Origin: Ruficoccus amylovorans
GTDB lineage: Bacteria > Verrucomicrobiota > Verrucomicrobiia > Opitutales > Cerasicoccaceae
Length of the DNA stretch: 64,000 bases
Direction: 5' to 3'
NCBI RefSeq assembly: GCF_014230085.1
Contig: NZ_JACHVB010000020.1
Span: 372,001 to 436,000, forward strand
Shown here: one piece after another, positions 4,288-9,761 of the stretch
Layout: each line of letters opens with the position of its first letter
Numbering within the stretch: position 1 is the stretch's first letter
Notes under the pieces: model-generated
Told to the model about the DNA's origin: nothing
Database searches by the model: none
The model's input: only the letters and a program-made list of their open reading frames with translations
Translations under genes and position numbers: made by a program

Positions 4288-5436
4288 TCACGCGCCCGCG
4301 GGGGCGCTTCGGCGGGCCGGGACCGGTTCAATGGTGCCTTCGGCGCGTTCGGTCTGGAGCCGGAGCTGGCCGCAGGCCGCGTTGATGTCGTGGCCCTTCT
4401 CACGCCGGATCGTGACCGAGACCCGCGCCTGCCGCAAAACGTCCGCGAAGGCGTCCTGCCGGGGGATTTCGGGGCGCACCCAGGGCAGGCCCTCCACCTT
4501 ATTGTAAGGGATGAGATTGACGTGGGCGTGCAGGTCGCGGGCGATCCGGGCCAGCGCCCGCGCCTGCTCCAGCGTGTCGTTGATCTCGCGGATGAGGATA
4601 AACTCCAGCGTAATCATGCGCCCGTGCCGCTCGGCAAAAGCCTTGGCGGCGGGCAAGAGCTTTTCCAGCGGGTACTTGCGGTTGACCGGCATGATCTGCT
4701 GGCGCACCTCGTCCGTCGCCCCGTGCAGGCTGATGGCCAGCCGCAGCCCGATGGGCTCCTCGGACAAGCGGACGATCTGCGGGGCCAGGCCGCTGGTCGA
4801 GACCGTGATGCGCCGCGCCCCGACGTTGAGCCCCCACTCGGCGTTGACGATGCCCAGCGCGCGCAGGAGATTGTCGTAGTTGGCCAGTGGTTCGCCCATG
4901 CCCATGACCACGATATTGTCAAAAGAGGCCAGTTCCTCGCTGGCGCGGGGGGTGTCCGGGTCCTCCTGATGGCAGACCTGGATCAACTGATGGACAATCT
5001 CCCCGGCCGACAGGTCGCGCTTCCAGCCCGCCAGGCCCGAGGCGCAGAACTTGCAGCCATAGGCGCAGCCGACCTGAGTCGAAATACAGACCGTCTTGCG
5101 CGAGCGGTCCTGCCCCACCCCTTCCTGCGGGGCGCGGATGATGACCGTCTCGATGAGCGAATGATCCCGCAGGCGCAGCAGGAACTTGTCCGTCACGTCG
5201 GAGGACGTTTTCGCGCCCAGCCGCGAGGTCGGGGCGAAGTCGTAGGTCTCCTCCAGCCAGGTGCGCAGGGGCTTGGACAGGTTGGTCATTTCCTGCGGCC
5301 CGGCAGCGCGTTTTTTATACAGCCAATCAAGGATCTGCCGGGCACGGAACGGCTTCTCGCCGCGTTCGGCCAGGGTGGCGGCGAGCGAGTCGAGCGTCTC
5401 GCCGTGAATCGGCGGTTTCCCGGTAAATCCCTTCAT
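4288..5436 (-). CDS. rlmN: Dual-specificity RNA methyltransferase RlmN
   Basis: A 382-residue radical-SAM enzyme that methylates C2 of A2503 in 23S rRNA and A37 in some tRNAs. The 4Fe-4S motif CAYGCKFC occupies residues 124-131 (C124, C128, C131). The resolving C-terminal cysteine of GHDINAACGQ is C355. The N-terminal helical domain (ARQILDWLYKK) is also typical. The frame stays open to 5571, but ATG 5436 (MKGFTGKPP) fits the family's N-terminus and length. It stands alone and is transcribed leftward. Confidence 0.95.
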   Translation of the reverse strand: MKGFTGKPPIHGETLDSLAATLAERGEKPFRARQILDWLYKKRAAGPQEMTNLSKPLRTWLEETYDFAPTSRLGAKTSSDVTDKFLLRLRDHSLIETVIIRAPQEGVGQDRSRKTVCISTQVGCAYGCKFCASGLAGWKRDLSAGEIVHQLIQVCHQEDPDTPRASEELASFDNIVVMGMGEPLANYDNLLRALGIVNAEWGLNVGARRITVSTSGLAPQIVRLSEEPIGLRLAISLHGATDEVRQQIMPVNRKYPLEKLLPAAKAFAERHGRMITLEFILIREINDTLEQARALARIARDLHAHVNLIPYNKVEGLPWVRPEIPRQDAFADVLRQARVSVTIRREKGHDINAACGQLRLQTERAEGTIEPVPARRSAPAGA

Positions 5437-5667
5437 CCGCCTATCAAGAGCGCATCGCCCGCCGGGGCGCAATAACGAATGAACCCGCCCCCGCGCAAAA
5501 GCCGCGCTTAACCCCTGCTGCAAGCCCCCTAATAGCGTCTGCAACAGCTTCCCGCGCTGTCGCCGTGGCATTTTTCCTGCTAATTTTCAGACGAGCCAGG
5601 CCAGATGCGATCTGGGATTATTGGCAGGTACAACCGAAGACCGGGACACCTTTAAACGCTACGCGAT

Positions 5668-5889
5668 ATGTCCAAAGCAAACGTGGAAAAACTCCTGACA
5701 GACGGCTGGACCGACAAGGCCCTCCGCGCCAAGTACAATGTCATCGAGACGAAAGAAGATTTCGTCGCCTCGGCCAATACCGACGGCTACGACTTCACCC
5801 TTGAGGAACTCGACGCCGTGCTCAAAGAGGAAGAACTCGACTTCTCCTCCTCCGGCAACCCGCGCTCCCGCGCCATCTGGCTGCACTGA
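5668..5889 (+). CDS. Nif11-domain small protein
   Basis: A 73-residue protein. Residues 1-48 match the Nif11 pattern, ending in DFVASANTDGYDFTLEELDA, where the GYDFTLEEL core is diagnostic. Nif11 domains occur as stand-alone proteins of unknown role and as leader regions of some ribosomally made natural products. Here the C-terminal part is only about 20 residues and ends GNPRSRAIWLH. It has no GG/GA cleavage site or Cys-rich core, and no modifying enzyme is visible nearby. It is convergent with the HTH gene at 5900 (10-base gap). Confidence 0.75.
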   Translation: MSKANVEKLLTDGWTDKALRAKYNVIETKEDFVASANTDGYDFTLEELDAVLKEEELDFSSSGNPRSRAIWLH

Positions 5890-5899
5890 CCGGGCCGAC

Positions 5900-6226
5900 T
5901 CAGTCCAGCCAGCGACGAAGGCTGCGCTTCTCCTCCGGGGTGCAGTGACTGAGGAGTTCGCCCACCTGCGCGAGGAAGTCCTCCGGCTCGTAGTTGGCGG
6001 TGCGCAGCAGGTACAGCAGCACGCCCTCGCGGTGGATCTGGTAACGCTGGCGTTTCTCATGGCGGAGTCCGGCCCGGCCGTTGGCGGTGTGTCCGAGGAT
6101 TTTCTGGTTCAGGAAGCAGTCCCGCACAAACTGGTCGGTCTTGCCGATAACGGCGGCCACCTCTTTGGGGCTGAACCATTCCTGCCCCGGCGGCAGCAGG
6201 CGCTCGAAGTGCGCGTTCATTCTCAT
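5900..6226 (-). CDS. Helix-turn-helix protein (excisionase/MerR-like)
   Basis: A 108-residue protein. The segment FSPKEVAAVIGKTDQFVRDC at residues 18-37 looks like a winged-helix/MerR- or excisionase-type HTH, followed by a basic wing (RHEKRQRY) and a helical C-terminus. Such proteins usually bind DNA in mobile elements or regulate nearby genes. It is the last gene of a leftward trio (RHH protein, unknown protein, this one), 12 bases after the stop of the middle gene. ATG 6226 and ATG 6220 are both possible starts. Confidence 0.65.
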   Translation of the reverse strand: MRMNAHFERLLPPGQEWFSPKEVAAVIGKTDQFVRDCFLNQKILGHTANGRAGLRHEKRQRYQIHREGVLLYLLRTANYEPEDFLAQVGELLSHCTPEEKRSLRRWLD

Positions 6227-6238
6227 GGCGGGACGGAC

Positions 6239-6577
6239 TTAAAGGACACGGGAAAAGCCTGCCCGCGGCCTGCGCCGCTGCCGGGCATCGCGGTAGCCCT
6301 GCTGGTAGGCTTCGCGGCGGGCCTGTTCGACGGCATCGCCGAGACGCTCGCCGAGGCGGTTGGCCATCATCTGGGCGTGAAAGACATCGCTGCAAAAGAC
6401 CTTGGCGTAGGCTTGCCAGGTCTTGCCGCTGCGTAGCGGCAGTCCGGTGTCGATCACCAGTTCGGCACAGCGGCCATCGGGCTGCACCCGGATCAGCGGA
6501 GTGGCTCCGGCGCGAGGATCGGCGGGAGCGGGAAAAGTGGCCGCAAAGGCCCGGGAAGTAGATTCGGTCGTGGTCAT
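6239..6577 (-). CDS. Unknown protein between RHH and HTH genes
   Basis: A 112-residue protein with a proline/alanine-rich N-terminus, a central mixed region (AELVIDTGLPLRSGKTWQAY) and an Arg-rich helical C-terminus (AVEQARREAYQQGYRDARQR). No family was recognised. The start at 6577 has a good ribosome-binding site (AGGAAAA just upstream). Its place between two DNA-binding proteins on the same strand suggests a shared transcript. The basic C-terminus could bind nucleic acid, but that is only a guess. Confidence 0.6.
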   Translation of the reverse strand: MTTTESTSRAFAATFPAPADPRAGATPLIRVQPDGRCAELVIDTGLPLRSGKTWQAYAKVFCSDVFHAQMMANRLGERLGDAVEQARREAYQQGYRDARQRRRPRAGFSRVL

Positions 6578-6638
6578 ATTTTTTCCTGGTTGAGGATGAC
6601 TGGTCAGTGTTTGGTCGGATAGCGGGAAGCAGCACGCA

Positions 6639-6842
6639 TCAGTGGCGCGGGACGGGTACGCAGTCGGTTTCGGCGTCGAGGTAACCCTCGCTGCGGAGGT
6701 GTTTTTTCAGGGCGCAAGCCACAAGGCTTGAGACCGAACGGTTGTCGTCAAAAGCCGCCTGGCGGGCGATCTCCCGCAAGTGTGGAGGCAGGCTCACTGA
6801 GACGTTGACAGTCGATATGGTTTTCACTTTCATAGTGAACAT
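6639..6842 (-). CDS. Ribbon-helix-helix family protein
   Basis: A short protein of 67 residues from ATG 6842; an upstream TTG at 6854 and an ATG at 6833 are also in frame. VNVSVSLPPHLREIARQAAF followed by NRSVSSLVACALKKHL has the beta-strand / helix / turn / helix pattern of RHH (CopG/Arc) repressors or antitoxins. It diverges from the RHH-nuclease gene at 6949 across an AT-rich gap holding a tandem repeat. It probably regulates this divergent pair, as RHH proteins usually repress their own promoters. Confidence 0.7.
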   Translation of the reverse strand: MFTMKVKTISTVNVSVSLPPHLREIARQAAFDDNRSVSSLVACALKKHLRSEGYLDAETDCVPVPRH

Positions 6843-6887
6843 AAGATCACTCAAACACCCTCCATTCGCAAGTTGATTTTCAGCTTT

Positions 6888-6913
6888 TTACTATTTTACT
6901 ATTATTTATTATT
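6888..6913. promoter_or_regulatory. Tandem TTACTATT repeat in divergent promoter region
   Basis: TTACTATT occurs twice back to back (6888-6895 and 6896-6903) and continues as ATTTATTATT. The stretch is very AT-rich within a GC-rich chromosome. It lies between two divergent genes that both encode RHH domains, and RHH proteins commonly bind short tandem repeats cooperatively, so it is a candidate operator overlapping the promoters. This is inference; no clear -35/-10 pair was assigned. Confidence 0.45.
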
Positions 6914-6948
6914 CATCGCCATTTATCAGCCACTTAGCCGTTCCATCC

Positions 6949-7569
6949 ATGTCAGAAGACCAGAAACACAAAACCGTGGGCGTCAGCTTTCCGCCCGAAC
7001 TGCGCCAGCGCGCCTCCGAACGGGCTCGGGGGCTGGGCTTGTCTTTTTCCAAGTACGTGACGCTCTGTGTCGAGGCCGAAGTCAGCGGCAAGCCGCCCCA
7101 ACTGGTCATGGAAAACCTGCTCCCGGCGGGCGCGCCCCCGCTCAACCTTGAAGCGGCCCTCGAAGAAGGCTCCGACTACGGCGCGATGAAAGCGGCCTCC
7201 ATCGGCTTCGAGGACGATATAGAGGAAATCCTGCGCCAGGAGGACATCTGCTACAGCCGTTTCGCCCAGGTGGCGCATCTGCGCACGGACTTCCTCGTCC
7301 AGCACGTGGACCCGGCCACGGGCCGCAACCTGCGCATCGCTCTGGAGTGCAAATACAATGTGCGCAAGCGCGCGACCGTCACCCTCGGCCAGTGCATTAT
7401 CCTCAAAAGCCTGCCCGGCGTGGATGCCGTCATGCTGTGCGTGCCGTACCTGAAGCACTTTGACCCGCACCTGAGCGACACCTTTGCCCAGCAGGGCATC
7501 CCCATCGTCACCCCCGACTCACTCAACCCCGGACTCGAATCGCTGCTGGCCAGTCTCGCCCCGGCTTGA
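6949..7569 (+). CDS. RHH domain fused to a PD-(D/E)XK nuclease-like domain
   Basis: A 206-residue protein. Residues 8-45 (TVGVSFPPELRQRASERA, then FSKYVTLCVEAEV) form an RHH-type DNA-binding region. Residues 95-200 have the order of a PD-(D/E)XK nuclease fold: D114 in RTDFLV, E133-x-K135 in ALECK, Q148 in the following helix, then strands DAVMLCVP and GIPIVTPDSL. A sequence-specific or methyl-independent endonuclease is plausible; loss of activity is possible too. It diverges from the RHH repressor-like gene. No obvious Shine-Dalgarno precedes ATG 6949. Confidence 0.65.
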   Translation: MSEDQKHKTVGVSFPPELRQRASERARGLGLSFSKYVTLCVEAEVSGKPPQLVMENLLPAGAPPLNLEAALEEGSDYGAMKAASIGFEDDIEEILRQEDICYSRFAQVAHLRTDFLVQHVDPATGRNLRIALECKYNVRKRATVTLGQCIILKSLPGVDAVMLCVPYLKHFDPHLSDTFAQQGIPIVTPDSLNPGLESLLASLAPA

Positions 7570-7593
7570 TTCGCCTCTGGCGAGCCAGAGGGC

Positions 7594-8034
7594 TTACGGC
7601 TGGGCTGGCATCGCCATTCCGTTGGAGTAATAGAACAGAAAAAGCGGCACGAAAACAACCAGCCCGAGCACAAAAGACAGGCCGCTCACAATGAGGTTGA
7701 CGAGCAGCCCCTTGGCAAAGCCGATCGGATGGTGGTTGCGCGTGAACCAGATCCCAAACAAGTAGGAGTACAGCAACAGCCAGATCAGGAAACTCAGCGG
7801 AGCCGTCACATAGACCAGGGAATCGCTCAATTGAGCCAGTTGCCCCAAAATCACGTTAATCACCGTTCCGATCAGCGTGATTTTGAACACGATAACATAT
7901 GCTTTACCGTAGGCGGGCATGCGCCTGACCACGATCTTCATGGCCCACTGCGCGAACAGGGCAGTCATAAGGCAGACCAAGGCGCAAATACCGACCGCAA
8001 TCAACAGCCCGAGAATCAATCCTATCGCTTCCAT
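7594..8034 (-). CDS. Four-helix membrane protein of unknown function
   Basis: A 146-residue protein with four hydrophobic segments, roughly residues 4-32, 45-67, 73-97 and 108-138. Residues between the second and third segments are uncharged and loops are short. No family was recognised. It is convergent with the RHH-nuclease gene and has its own upstream region of about 280 bases (8035-8318), in which nothing else was seen. Confidence 0.6.
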   Translation of the reverse strand: MEAIGLILGLLIAVGICALVCLMTALFAQWAMKIVVRRMPAYGKAYVIVFKITLIGTVINVILGQLAQLSDSLVYVTAPLSFLIWLLLYSYLFGIWFTRNHHPIGFAKGLLVNLIVSGLSFVLGLVVFVPLFLFYYSNGMAMPAQP

Positions 8035-8318
8035 CGAAAAAGAACGTCCATCTGAATAGGCAATTCTCCCTATTTACAAGCTGTAAATTCACTCTTTTAC
8101 TCCGTGCTTAAATACCCTCCACCCCCAGGAAAAGCCCGCAACATCAAGAGGGCCCAGTGACAGATACTCCGCTTACCTCACGGCATCATACATAGCCTTA
8201 TCTTCGTGTCCGGCCAGAAGTTCACCACGGGCGAGAAGATCATCCCGGCACGAGCTGACTGTTTTCGCAAAATAAAATTGCCCCGCCGGGGTGGTTCGGT
8301 GTTGCTTGTGCGGCATCC

Positions 8319-9761
8319 ATGCCGGTCAAAATCCACGACACCCTCAGCAAGACCAAACAACCGCTGGCCCCCGCCGACGGCCAAACTTTCCGTTTCTACT
8401 GCTGCGGACCGACCGTTTACGGCCCGGCCCACATCGGCAACTTCCGCACCTTCCTCGTGCAGGACGTCCTGCGCCGCACCCTGGAGGTTGACGGGCTGAG
8501 CCTGCGCCACGTGCGCAATATCACCGACGTGGACGACAAGACTATCCGCCAGAGCCAGGCCGAAGGCCGCACCCTGTCCGAGTTCACCACGCACTGGACG
8601 GACAAGTTTCATGCTGACTGCTCCGCGCTCAACCTCCTGCCCCCGCACGAGGAGCCCCGTGCCACCGCCCACATCGCCGAACAGATCGCCATGATCGAGC
8701 AGCTCGTCGCCGGGGGCCACGCCTACGCCGCAGCCGACGGCTCGGTGTACTTCAAGGTCTGCTCCTGCGAGCACTACGGCGAACTCTCCGGCCTCGACCG
8801 CTCCAGCCTGCGCACGCAGCATGTCAACAGCGCGGGCGACGCCAACGACGCCGACGAGTACGACCGCGAGAGCGTGAGCGACTTTGCCCTCTGGAAGGCC
8901 CGCAAGCCCGAGGACGGTGAGAATTTCTGGTCCAGCCCCTGGGGCGAAGGCCGCCCCGGCTGGCACATCGAGTGCTCGGCCATGAGCGTAAAGTACCTCG
9001 GCGAGGGCTTCGACCTGCATGGCGGCGGGATCGATTTGTGCTTCCCGCACCACGAGAACGAGATCGCCCAGAGCGAGTGCGCCACCGGCACCCGGCCCTT
9101 TGCCCGCCTGTGGTTCCACAGCGCGCACCTCATGGTCGAGGGCAGCAAGATGTCCAAAAGCCTCGGCAACCTCTACACGCTCGAAGACCTCTTGCAAAAG
9201 GGCTTCCGGCCGATGGATATCCGCTACGCGCTGATCTCCGGCCACTACCGCCAGCAGCTCAACTTCACGCTCAACGGCCTGAAGGCCGGCCGTTCCGCGC
9301 TGGAGAAGATGGAAAAAACCCTCCGTCCGATCCTCGGCCGCCTCGGGGTTTCCGAAGAAGACTTCCGCCACTGGATCAAGCCCTCCCCGCTCGTCACGAC
9401 GGGGATGTTTGCCCGGGCCTGGGAGAAGCTTTCAGACGACCTCAATGTGCCCGCCGCCCTTGGGGAAATCTTTTCCGTGCTCGGCGACCTGGCCGACCCG
9501 ACGCTCGACTCCGCCGCCGTCGCCGGGCAGGTGGAGTCCTTCGGGGCGCTGCTCTACGCGCTCGGGCTCGATCTCTTCACCGCGCAGGATGCCCCCGCCG
9601 CCGCCGACATCCCCGAGTCCGTGGCCAACCTGGCCGAGGCCCGCTGGGAAGCAAAAAAAGCCCGCGACTGGGCCAACGCCGACGGCCTGCGCGACGAGCT
9701 TCTCCAGCTCGGCTGGAAGATCCTCGACCGCAAGGACGGCTACGATCTGGAAAAGGTGTAG
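8319..9761 (+). CDS. cysS: Cysteinyl-tRNA synthetase
   Basis: A 480-residue class I aminoacyl-tRNA synthetase that charges tRNA-Cys. The HIGH motif appears as HIGN (residues 38-41) and the KMSKS loop is residues 277-281. Zinc ligands C29, C219 and the His pair in FPHHENE (near 244) are present, as is the terminal LDRKDGYDLE sequence typical of CysRS. Length is normal for the family. It is a single gene with its own promoter region; a tRNA-Cys gene occurs at 45.2 kb. Confidence 0.97.
   Translation: MPVKIHDTLSKTKQPLAPADGQTFRFYCCGPTVYGPAHIGNFRTFLVQDVLRRTLEVDGLSLRHVRNITDVDDKTIRQSQAEGRTLSEFTTHWTDKFHADCSALNLLPPHEEPRATAHIAEQIAMIEQLVAGGHAYAAADGSVYFKVCSCEHYGELSGLDRSSLRTQHVNSAGDANDADEYDRESVSDFALWKARKPEDGENFWSSPWGEGRPGWHIECSAMSVKYLGEGFDLHGGGIDLCFPHHENEIAQSECATGTRPFARLWFHSAHLMVEGSKMSKSLGNLYTLEDLLQKGFRPMDIRYALISGHYRQQLNFTLNGLKAGRSALEKMEKTLRPILGRLGVSEEDFRHWIKPSPLVTTGMFARAWEKLSDDLNVPAALGEIFSVLGDLADPTLDSAAVAGQVESFGALLYALGLDLFTAQDAPAAADIPESVANLAEARWEAKKARDWANADGLRDELLQLGWKILDRKDGYDLEKV

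Follow-up and report, generated by a model that had tools for sequence, protein, structure and literature searches.

An RHH-like head on a PD-(D/E)XK-fold domain in Ruficoccus amylovorans, and its XRE-headed sister clade before anti-phage genes

RHH repressor units that carry a functional C-terminal domain are known from the RHH-enzyme fusion PutA and the RHH sensor NikR, where this domain is an unrelated enzyme or a ligand-binding fold, unlike in the protein described here. Fusions of HTH and PD-(D/E)XK domains are already known as well: examples are archaeal COG1395, NaeI, TnsA, winged-helix endonucleases and HARE-HTH proteins beside BREX (PMC1189080, PMC11037411, PMC12839542). In COG1395 (PAB2104), an Xre HTH stands between a PD-(D/E)XK domain and an inactive PD-(D/E)XK domain. 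These proteins resemble ours in that an Xre-type HTH is joined to PD-(D/E)XK in proteins annotated as putative transcription regulators. However, their domain order is another one, they have two nuclease-fold domains and they are archaeal; the section that describes them includes no RHH version (PMC1189080). The winged-helix/PD-(D/E)XK modification-dependent endonucleases likewise combine a DNA-binding domain with PD-(D/E)XK. However, their winged helix lies behind the nuclease domain, they sense adenine methylation, and they are restriction enzymes and not genes before other systems (PMC11037411).

Among defence regulators, BrxR/CapW comes closest in its genomic setting. It is a DNA-binding regulator co-localised with many unrelated defence systems (PMC9122601, PMC9122588, PMC9122589), as is the XRE-headed clade described below, and its second domain is thought to bind a ligand (PMC9122601). 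However, BrxR/CapW consists of wHTH and WYL, whereas here an XRE or RHH head is joined to a PD-(D/E)XK fold, and the RHH member in our window does not lie beside defence genes. RptR and CapK/CapS are also regulators encoded upstream of defence genes (PMC12255303, PMC13373217). In contrast to our proteins, RptR is a single four-helix domain (PMC12255303) and CapK/CapS a kinase-repressor pair (PMC13373217), and the available parts of both sources describe no nuclease fold.

The open-access literature that we searched describes no RHH-PD-(D/E)XK protein, where absence there is not absence from print. It also describes no XRE-PD-(D/E)XK protein before defence operons, the nearest precedent being COG1395 above (PMC1189080). 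What is new here is that the same domain, with an XRE head, stands in a sister clade directly before anti-phage genes in 15 of the 19 loci that could be judged.

A predicted two-domain protein and its homologues

The gene, here called RHH-PD, lies in a window of 64,000 nucleotides, which is the whole stretch of DNA that was analysed. Its two parts are given below.

6949..7569, + strand: RHH-PD gene, ATG start, 206 aa and stop (stop within the coordinates)
6970..7083, + strand: RHH-like unit, residues 8-45 (modelled helices, weak family matches, profile match to the small RHH protein)
7147..7566, + strand: predicted PD-(D/E)XK-fold domain, residues 67-206 (AlphaFold2, PDB structure comparison, homologues)

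Nine of the ten genomes of the family carry RHH-PD, the window's own counted, which marks it as a true gene rather than a chance reading frame. In the other eight the protein is 86, 87 and 76% identical (three congeners) or 61-67% identical (five more). Searched alone against genome contigs, the window protein found five loci, all from close relatives (Cerasicoccus arenae, C. frondis, C. maritimus, Verrucomicrobiota bacterium JB024 and an Opitutales MAG); at NCBI, the Cerasicoccus lineage reads Verrucomicrobiota, Opitutia, Puniceicoccales, Cerasicoccaceae. The open reading frame matched no family of Pfam, PHROGs or PADLOC at E up to 1, and the PDB gave nothing below E 0.34 by sequence. The Pfam family PF18741 (REase_MTES_1575) does not match the window protein and is found below its cutoff in relatives (best in L038, E 2.3e-5, 24.8 bits vs cutoff 38.2). 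Rfam gave nothing at gathering scores over 5000-9000.

An origin of RHH-PD in a mobile element or phage was considered and set aside. The window protein had no plasmid or phage match (tblastn, E 0.1), and none of the seven viral-contig stretches that fit a pattern encodes a relative. The XRE member L040 gave no plasmid match at E 0.001, and its matches in 3 of 50,697 phage records (E 0.04-0.05) were taken as chance.

The initial annotation, made from the sequence alone, had proposed an RHH unit followed by a restriction-like domain with D114, E133-x-K135 and Q148 in the order of such nucleases, and then two strands. The translation indeed reads D, E, K and Q at residues 114, 133, 135 and 148. 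The AlphaFold2 monomer model, built on an alignment of 10 members (mean pLDDT 75.7, pTM 0.59), shows the restriction-like core and an RHH-like pair of helices. Two predicted N-terminal helices (16-28 and 33-46) are RHH-like, and the monomer model does not resolve the expected ribbon strand, residues 1-11 being at pLDDT <50. The C-terminal part is modelled as a helix (67-97), three strands (101-108, 111-120 and 127-134), a helix (139-154), a strand (160-164) and two further helices (173-181 and 189-203). This alpha-beta-beta-beta-alpha-beta order is that of the PD-(D/E)XK core, as had been assumed. Here D114 falls on the second strand. E133 lies where the third strand ends, K135 directly follows that strand, and the helix behind contains Q148; an acid on core strand 2 and a (D/E)X(K) on strand 3 are both present (D114, E133, K135). 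Of the two strands expected after the Q148 helix only the one at 160-164 is clear, and the second is only two residues long.

The best PDB matches of the model are PD-(D/E)XK proteins by Foldseek as well as by VIA-align, which is the outcome the initial annotation would have expected. Foldseek gave modest E-values, the best being 2.1e-3 and none reaching 0.001. XisH, Can2, an archaeal repair endonuclease, VC1899, MspJI, PaqCI and Card1 hold the top ranks, BamHI stands at rank 20, and unrelated folds are mixed into the list, e.g. retroviral integrases from rank 17. VIA-align gave Z 11.8 for Can2 (7bdv_A; rmsd 2.4, 113 aligned) and Z 9.3-11.1 for VC1899, Cdn1, BsaWI, XisH and EndoMS; its rows span residues 69-206 only and are thus silent on the RHH part. 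A viral structure library returned four matches at E up to 0.001, of which two are nameless, one is uncharacterised and one is a DUF2726 protein.

For the head, the NCBIfam family YlcI_YnfO_N matches residues 8-45 below its cutoff (E 0.0026, 17.8 bits vs cutoff 30), and the window's own N-terminus gave nothing in Pfam at E up to 1. When 12 N-termini were compared with Pfam, seven families matched weakly: a NikA-like family (five members, best E 0.019, the best of all), CopG_antitoxin, CcdA, a FitA-like RHH family, HicB and RHH_1 (one each), and one unrelated family. The first six we take to be RHH-type families. In addition, a comparison of the head profile with the profile of the small RHH protein encoded next to it gave E 2.8e-5 at a probability of 74%. 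This sequence evidence is weak, yet one-sided and consistent, and the head likely belongs to the RHH type. Together with the model, this speaks for the predicted architecture, in which an RHH-like head precedes a PD-(D/E)XK fold.

A profile of the C-terminal domain matched in 29 of the 273 genomes sampled from the order, and in 12 of the 387 genomes of a phylum sample, all within the window's order. A second profile was run on a phylum sample of 213 genomes, and all phylum-sample matches of both profiles fell in this order, by which we mean the grouping used by the genome search. By their N-termini, the homologues are of two kinds, with 16 proteins of the RHH kind and 15 of an XRE-type HTH kind. 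Pfam HTH_3 matched all five of the 15 XRE rows that were scanned (2.3e-9 to 1.1e-6). L025, counted among the XRE rows, has no clear XRE head by eye; L026, another of these rows, and the additional locus L172 lie at contig ends, where their open frame shows no head. Mean identity is 24% (18-34) between the kinds, 49% within the RHH kind and 35% within the XRE kind, and one branch with support 100/100 separates the two in a tree of all 31 rows. The XRE profile retrieves the RHH member of genome G142 at 5.2e-18, and the RHH-rich profile retrieves XRE members. Judged by these comparisons, both clades are homologous over the C-terminal domain.

The divergent module and its intergenic region

RHH-PD is part of a module in which the other genes are read in the opposite direction.

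6639..6854, - strand: small RHH gene, 71 aa as listed (aligned part from the ATG at 6833), divergent partner (Pfam, synteny)
6239..6577, - strand: orf6239, 112 aa; predicted strands, then a long helix (model pLDDT 65.8)
5900..6226, - strand: hth5900, 108 aa, HTH_17-like (weak match, E 0.17; alignment, synteny)
6835..6948, no strand: divergent intergenic/5' region with blocks conserved across families (alignment of 11 loci)
6835..6850, no strand: GTGAACATAAGATCAC, imperfect palindrome over the small RHH start region, candidate operator (alignment of 11 loci)
6877..6905, + strand: promoter-like site for RHH-PD, TTTTCA-17-TATTAT (consensus match only)
6901..6929, - strand: promoter-like site for the divergent genes, CTGATA-17-AATAAT (consensus match only)

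The layout, with RHH-PD on one side and the small RHH gene, often orf6239, and a wHTH gene divergent from it, is conserved within the order and preserved though the outer neighbourhood varies. The small RHH protein falls just under the cutoff of Pfam RHH_5 (E 3.4e-5, 23.9 bits vs 26). In the 15 RHH-form loci fetched from outside the window, the wHTH gene adjoins in 14, the small RHH gene in 12 and orf6239 in 7; the sole locus without wHTH, L058, breaks off where its contig ends, and another contig of the same genome (G471) carries the three partners. RHH-PD itself occurs in 16 of the 273 order genomes. The small RHH gene was found at E < 1e-20 in 14, all among these 16 (it is missing in G006 and G142), and 29 more genomes gave only weaker matches (E 2e-8 or above). 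For orf6239 there were ten genomes at E < 1e-30 and one at 1e-3; nine have RHH-PD, and in one, G423, orf6239 sits on a contig of 3,078 bases that stops directly after it. G005, the only family genome without RHH-PD, also misses the small RHH gene and orf6239. The hypergeometric figure for this co-occurrence, 1e-21, ignores ancestry and is a guide only.

The wHTH family is broader: at E up to 0.001 it has matches in 79 of the 273 genomes, some of which measure 0.7-1.1 Mb. A second wHTH copy in the window's genome (L114, 6494-7033) lies divergent from a gene that looks by eye like an XRE regulator, and the wHTH proteins of L050, L051, L052 and L053 have a C-terminal extension ending in (T/L)GTC. 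A small Nif11-domain protein adjoins the module in the window (5668-5889, + strand, Pfam E 1e-13), and an 88% identical copy exists in G007.

The wider surroundings appear housekeeping-like by eye and vary by genus: here they include rlmN, cysS and thrS, and in Cerasicoccus genes that resemble panC and oligoribonuclease. None of the three scanned neighbours in the window matched a PADLOC family at E up to 1e-5. Among ten genes near RHH-PD from six loci (three in the window, two each in L050 and L054, one each in L051, L055 and L059), one had a PADLOC match, a DEDDh exonuclease (E 4.7e-8) that is oligoribonuclease-like. By PADLOC on these ten neighbours, and by eye in the wider view, the RHH form lies away from defence genes.

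Four blocks are conserved across 11 loci in the intergenic region. One, GTGAAC...TCAC, lies over the small RHH gene's start; the others are GCAA, a stretch rich in A+T and one that resembles ATCAA-n-GACTTA. The first is a perfect 5-6-5 inverted repeat in G481 and G461, and the window copy has one mismatched arm. This imperfect palindrome was seen by eye; an automated short-repeat search of 6835-6960 reported none. Without mismatches, 6835..6850 is the sole site of GTGAACATAAGATCAC in the genome. With up to 2 mismatches there are 16 operator-like places (9 forward, 7 reverse) vs 1 in a backward control, and seven of the 16 share a single sequence variant, spread over seven contigs. We propose that the palindrome may serve as operator, and part of its conservation may be coding. 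Promoter-like sites are present on both strands, four in 2.8 kb vs 0.6 in shuffles. Elsewhere in the genome, two identical perfect 5-6-5 palindromes that resemble the candidate operator, GTGAACATTTTTTCAC, were observed at G000:C20:233286-233301 and G000:C60:136822-136837.

XRE-headed relatives before defence genes

The XRE-headed form (XRE-PD) was followed at 21 loci. Two of them were left unjudged because of contig ends (L180, and L062 with one same-strand ORF before the end), which leaves 19. A defence call required a PADLOC family at E up to 1e-5 among the same-strand genes directly behind XRE-PD, in ORF maps that are greedy longest-ORF maps and not gene calls. This was the case at 15 of the 19 loci, a count on the XRE-PD loci themselves, to be set beside the ten genes near RHH-PD. 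The PADLOC matches behind XRE-PD were:

L170: type I R-M
L171: type III R-M
L172: type II/IIG
L175: LmuB-like SMC and SIR2
L176, L182: BrxC/PglY
L179: DrmD-like helicase
L181: HmaB-like methylase
L183: PDC-S46, with three further genes without match
L063: BrxA and BrxC
L061, L066: HmaA (a fragment in L066)
L185: type II methylase and endonuclease
L186: HmaA/HmaB
L187: DUF499/DUF1156

The pattern was first seen by reading the neighbours of the XRE form and then tested with PADLOC. Three loci on viral contigs were found in a later scan, after the idea had formed, and two of these, L186 and L187, have nearly identical regulators. The next ORF overlaps XRE-PD or abuts it within 22 bases at 13 of the 15 loci, the gaps in the other two being 244 (L186) and 141 bases (L187). 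The PADLOC match sits one to four genes further along the same-strand run in L172, L175, L176, L181 and L182, and the gene adjoining XRE-PD in L181 (912 aa) has no PADLOC match. XRE-PD is not always the first gene of its run: in L179 and L182 it is preceded, at about 75-100 bases, by another ORF on its own strand. The four loci without a defence gene behind by eye (L173, L174, L177 and L178, 4 of 19) form one subclade, L177 offering only about 880 bases behind the gene. In its role this subclade may come nearer to the RHH form.

The pair L186 and L187, both on phage-like contigs, gives a closer view of the gene's border. Two stretches, 95.5 and 95.9% identical, reach base 6548 inside the 3' end of XRE-PD, and beyond it the loci are unlike: L186 carries Hma-type genes, L187 DUF499/DUF1156 genes. 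Since the similarity stops there, the end of the regulator gene marks the joint between a shared backbone and its cargo in this pair. A gene upstream in L186 matches phage exonucleases, and L185 carries phage-type helicase, Sak4-like and integrase genes.

What the nuclease-fold domain may do

Conservation of the predicted active site bears on every reading of RHH-PD. The relevant codons and their states in the 31 aligned homologues are:

7288..7290, + strand: D114 codon, D in 31/31
7345..7353, + strand: E133-C134-K135 codons, E in 30/31 (D in one), C in 31/31, K in 21/31 or R in 10/31
7357..7359, + strand: N137 codon, N in 31/31
7390..7392, + strand: Q148 codon, Q in 16/16 RHH rows and 0/15 other rows

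Over 127 aligned columns of these rows the mean top-residue frequency is 0.47. Homologues that lack D114 and E133, which would have spoken against the initial annotation, are not what the alignment holds: D114 is invariant and E133 gives way once, to D. Its K135 stands in most rows and is R in the rest. Lysine is found in the nine RHH members of the window's family and arginine in the seven from other families, and the K/R state requires at least five changes on the tree. From these counts, the acids are strongly constrained and a positive charge at 135 is always kept, while the lysine itself is not. A superfamily survey (2005) highlights putative catalytic Lys and Arg together and lists Asn, Gln and acidic replacements of the Lys (PMC1189080). 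Catalysis by RHH-PD is, on its sequence, plausible but unproven, and in our judgement the K/R alternation would suit nucleic-acid contact better than strict catalysis.

The initial annotation had offered a site-directed cut or a fold kept only for binding. Both are compatible with the sequence. We prefer a third reading, because the XRE sister clade stands directly before anti-phage genes: chances are about even that RHH-PD is a DNA-binding regulator of two domains, the second being a nuclease-derived sensor or effector. For this regulator we infer the following mechanism. The RHH unit would dimerise and bind an operator in the divergent intergenic region, and so control its own gene and the opposite small RHH-(orf6239)-wHTH genes, which the layout suggests as the most likely targets. 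The PD-(D/E)XK domain, with its metal-binding acids kept, would sense or process DNA, for example broken or single-stranded ends, and this would change the activity of the regulator. The protein belongs to a single lineage that combines this domain either with an XRE head, before many unrelated anti-phage genes, or with an RHH head, in a stable chromosomal module. This reading is favoured by the position of the XRE clade before unrelated defence systems, by the exchangeable heads and by the tolerance for K or R. It is further backed by the pair L186 and L187, where one phage-like backbone and regulator go with different cargo, and for the RHH form by the stable divergent layout, the co-occurrence with the small RHH gene and the conserved intergenic region. 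However, D114 and E133 are kept more strictly than a pure sensor would need, and for the RHH form, without a nearby defence system, regulation by analogy with the XRE form is an indirect argument. On the same side count the four XRE loci that lack a defence gene by eye, the two in which XRE-PD is not first in its run, the scores of the RHH head, which stay under curated cutoffs, and the candidate operator, which has a single perfect copy and may be conserved in part as coding sequence; the co-occurrence counts also take no account of ancestry.

Because D and E are so strongly conserved, an active nuclease, perhaps itself the sensor, stands close behind. In this reading, a sequence-directed enzyme would be guided by its RHH or XRE head to specific or modified sites, where a working PD-(D/E)XK dimer would cut; we consider it less likely than the regulator, yet a strong competitor. 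The near-invariant acids and the ever-present basic residue at 135 (31/31) fit such an enzyme, and the top fold matches include the nucleases Can2, Cdn1, BsaWI and EndoMS. Precedents exist in the winged-helix/PD-(D/E)XK endonucleases (PMC11037411), in NaeI and TnsA (PMC1189080) and in PD-(D/E)XK proteins, some of them HARE-HTH-fused, that are auxiliary effectors beside BREX (PMC12839542). Against it stand the repeated change from K to R, the restriction enzymes that several systems behind the XRE form bring of their own (L171, L172 and L185), and the surroundings of the RHH form, which hold no methyltransferase or defence system by eye and by PADLOC on the ten neighbours. Moreover, the window protein has no match in the plasmid and phage records searched.

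It is improbable that the domain has lost catalysis and is kept in an RHH repressor just to bind DNA or to dimerise, even though the survey gives a model for this in the degenerate PD-(D/E)XK domain that accompanies an Xre-type HTH in archaeal COG1395 (PMC1189080). K135R in 10 of the 31 rows would agree with a dead fold, but the D and E columns rank with the best conserved, far above the mean given before. Dead nuclease domains usually lose precisely these catalytic residues. Finally, we see very little room for a toxin-antitoxin-like pair of RHH-PD as toxin and the small divergent RHH protein (or orf6239) as antitoxin: the two RHH genes are near-strictly linked and RHH units are typical DNA-binding parts of antitoxins, but the genes are divergent and not co-directional, the module has further conserved genes, RHH-PD, present in nine of ten family genomes, is not patchy there, and no toxin-antitoxin family of Pfam or NCBIfam matched above its cutoff.

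Returning to a regulator with a nuclease-derived domain, we tentatively suggest, though we would not call it probable, that the order holds an undescribed lineage of regulators built from one PD-(D/E)XK-derived domain and exchangeable heads. The XRE form would be a general control element before unrelated anti-phage operons that marks the point of cargo exchange in phage-like elements, and the RHH form would have been domesticated into a fixed four-gene chromosomal module. The domain would bind or trim DNA that is foreign or broken, sense it in this way and so switch transcription. How anti-phage operons are controlled, i.e. kept quiet and switched on, is poorly known. A nuclease-fold domain as part of a defence regulator would, if true, mean direct sensing of DNA under attack, and the RHH form would be the same part reused away from defence. 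If RHH-PD is an active nuclease instead, a site-targeted nuclease within a regulatory module would also be unusual. With its XRE and RHH forms and its natural K/R variants of the active site, the family is a set in which these ideas can be tested.
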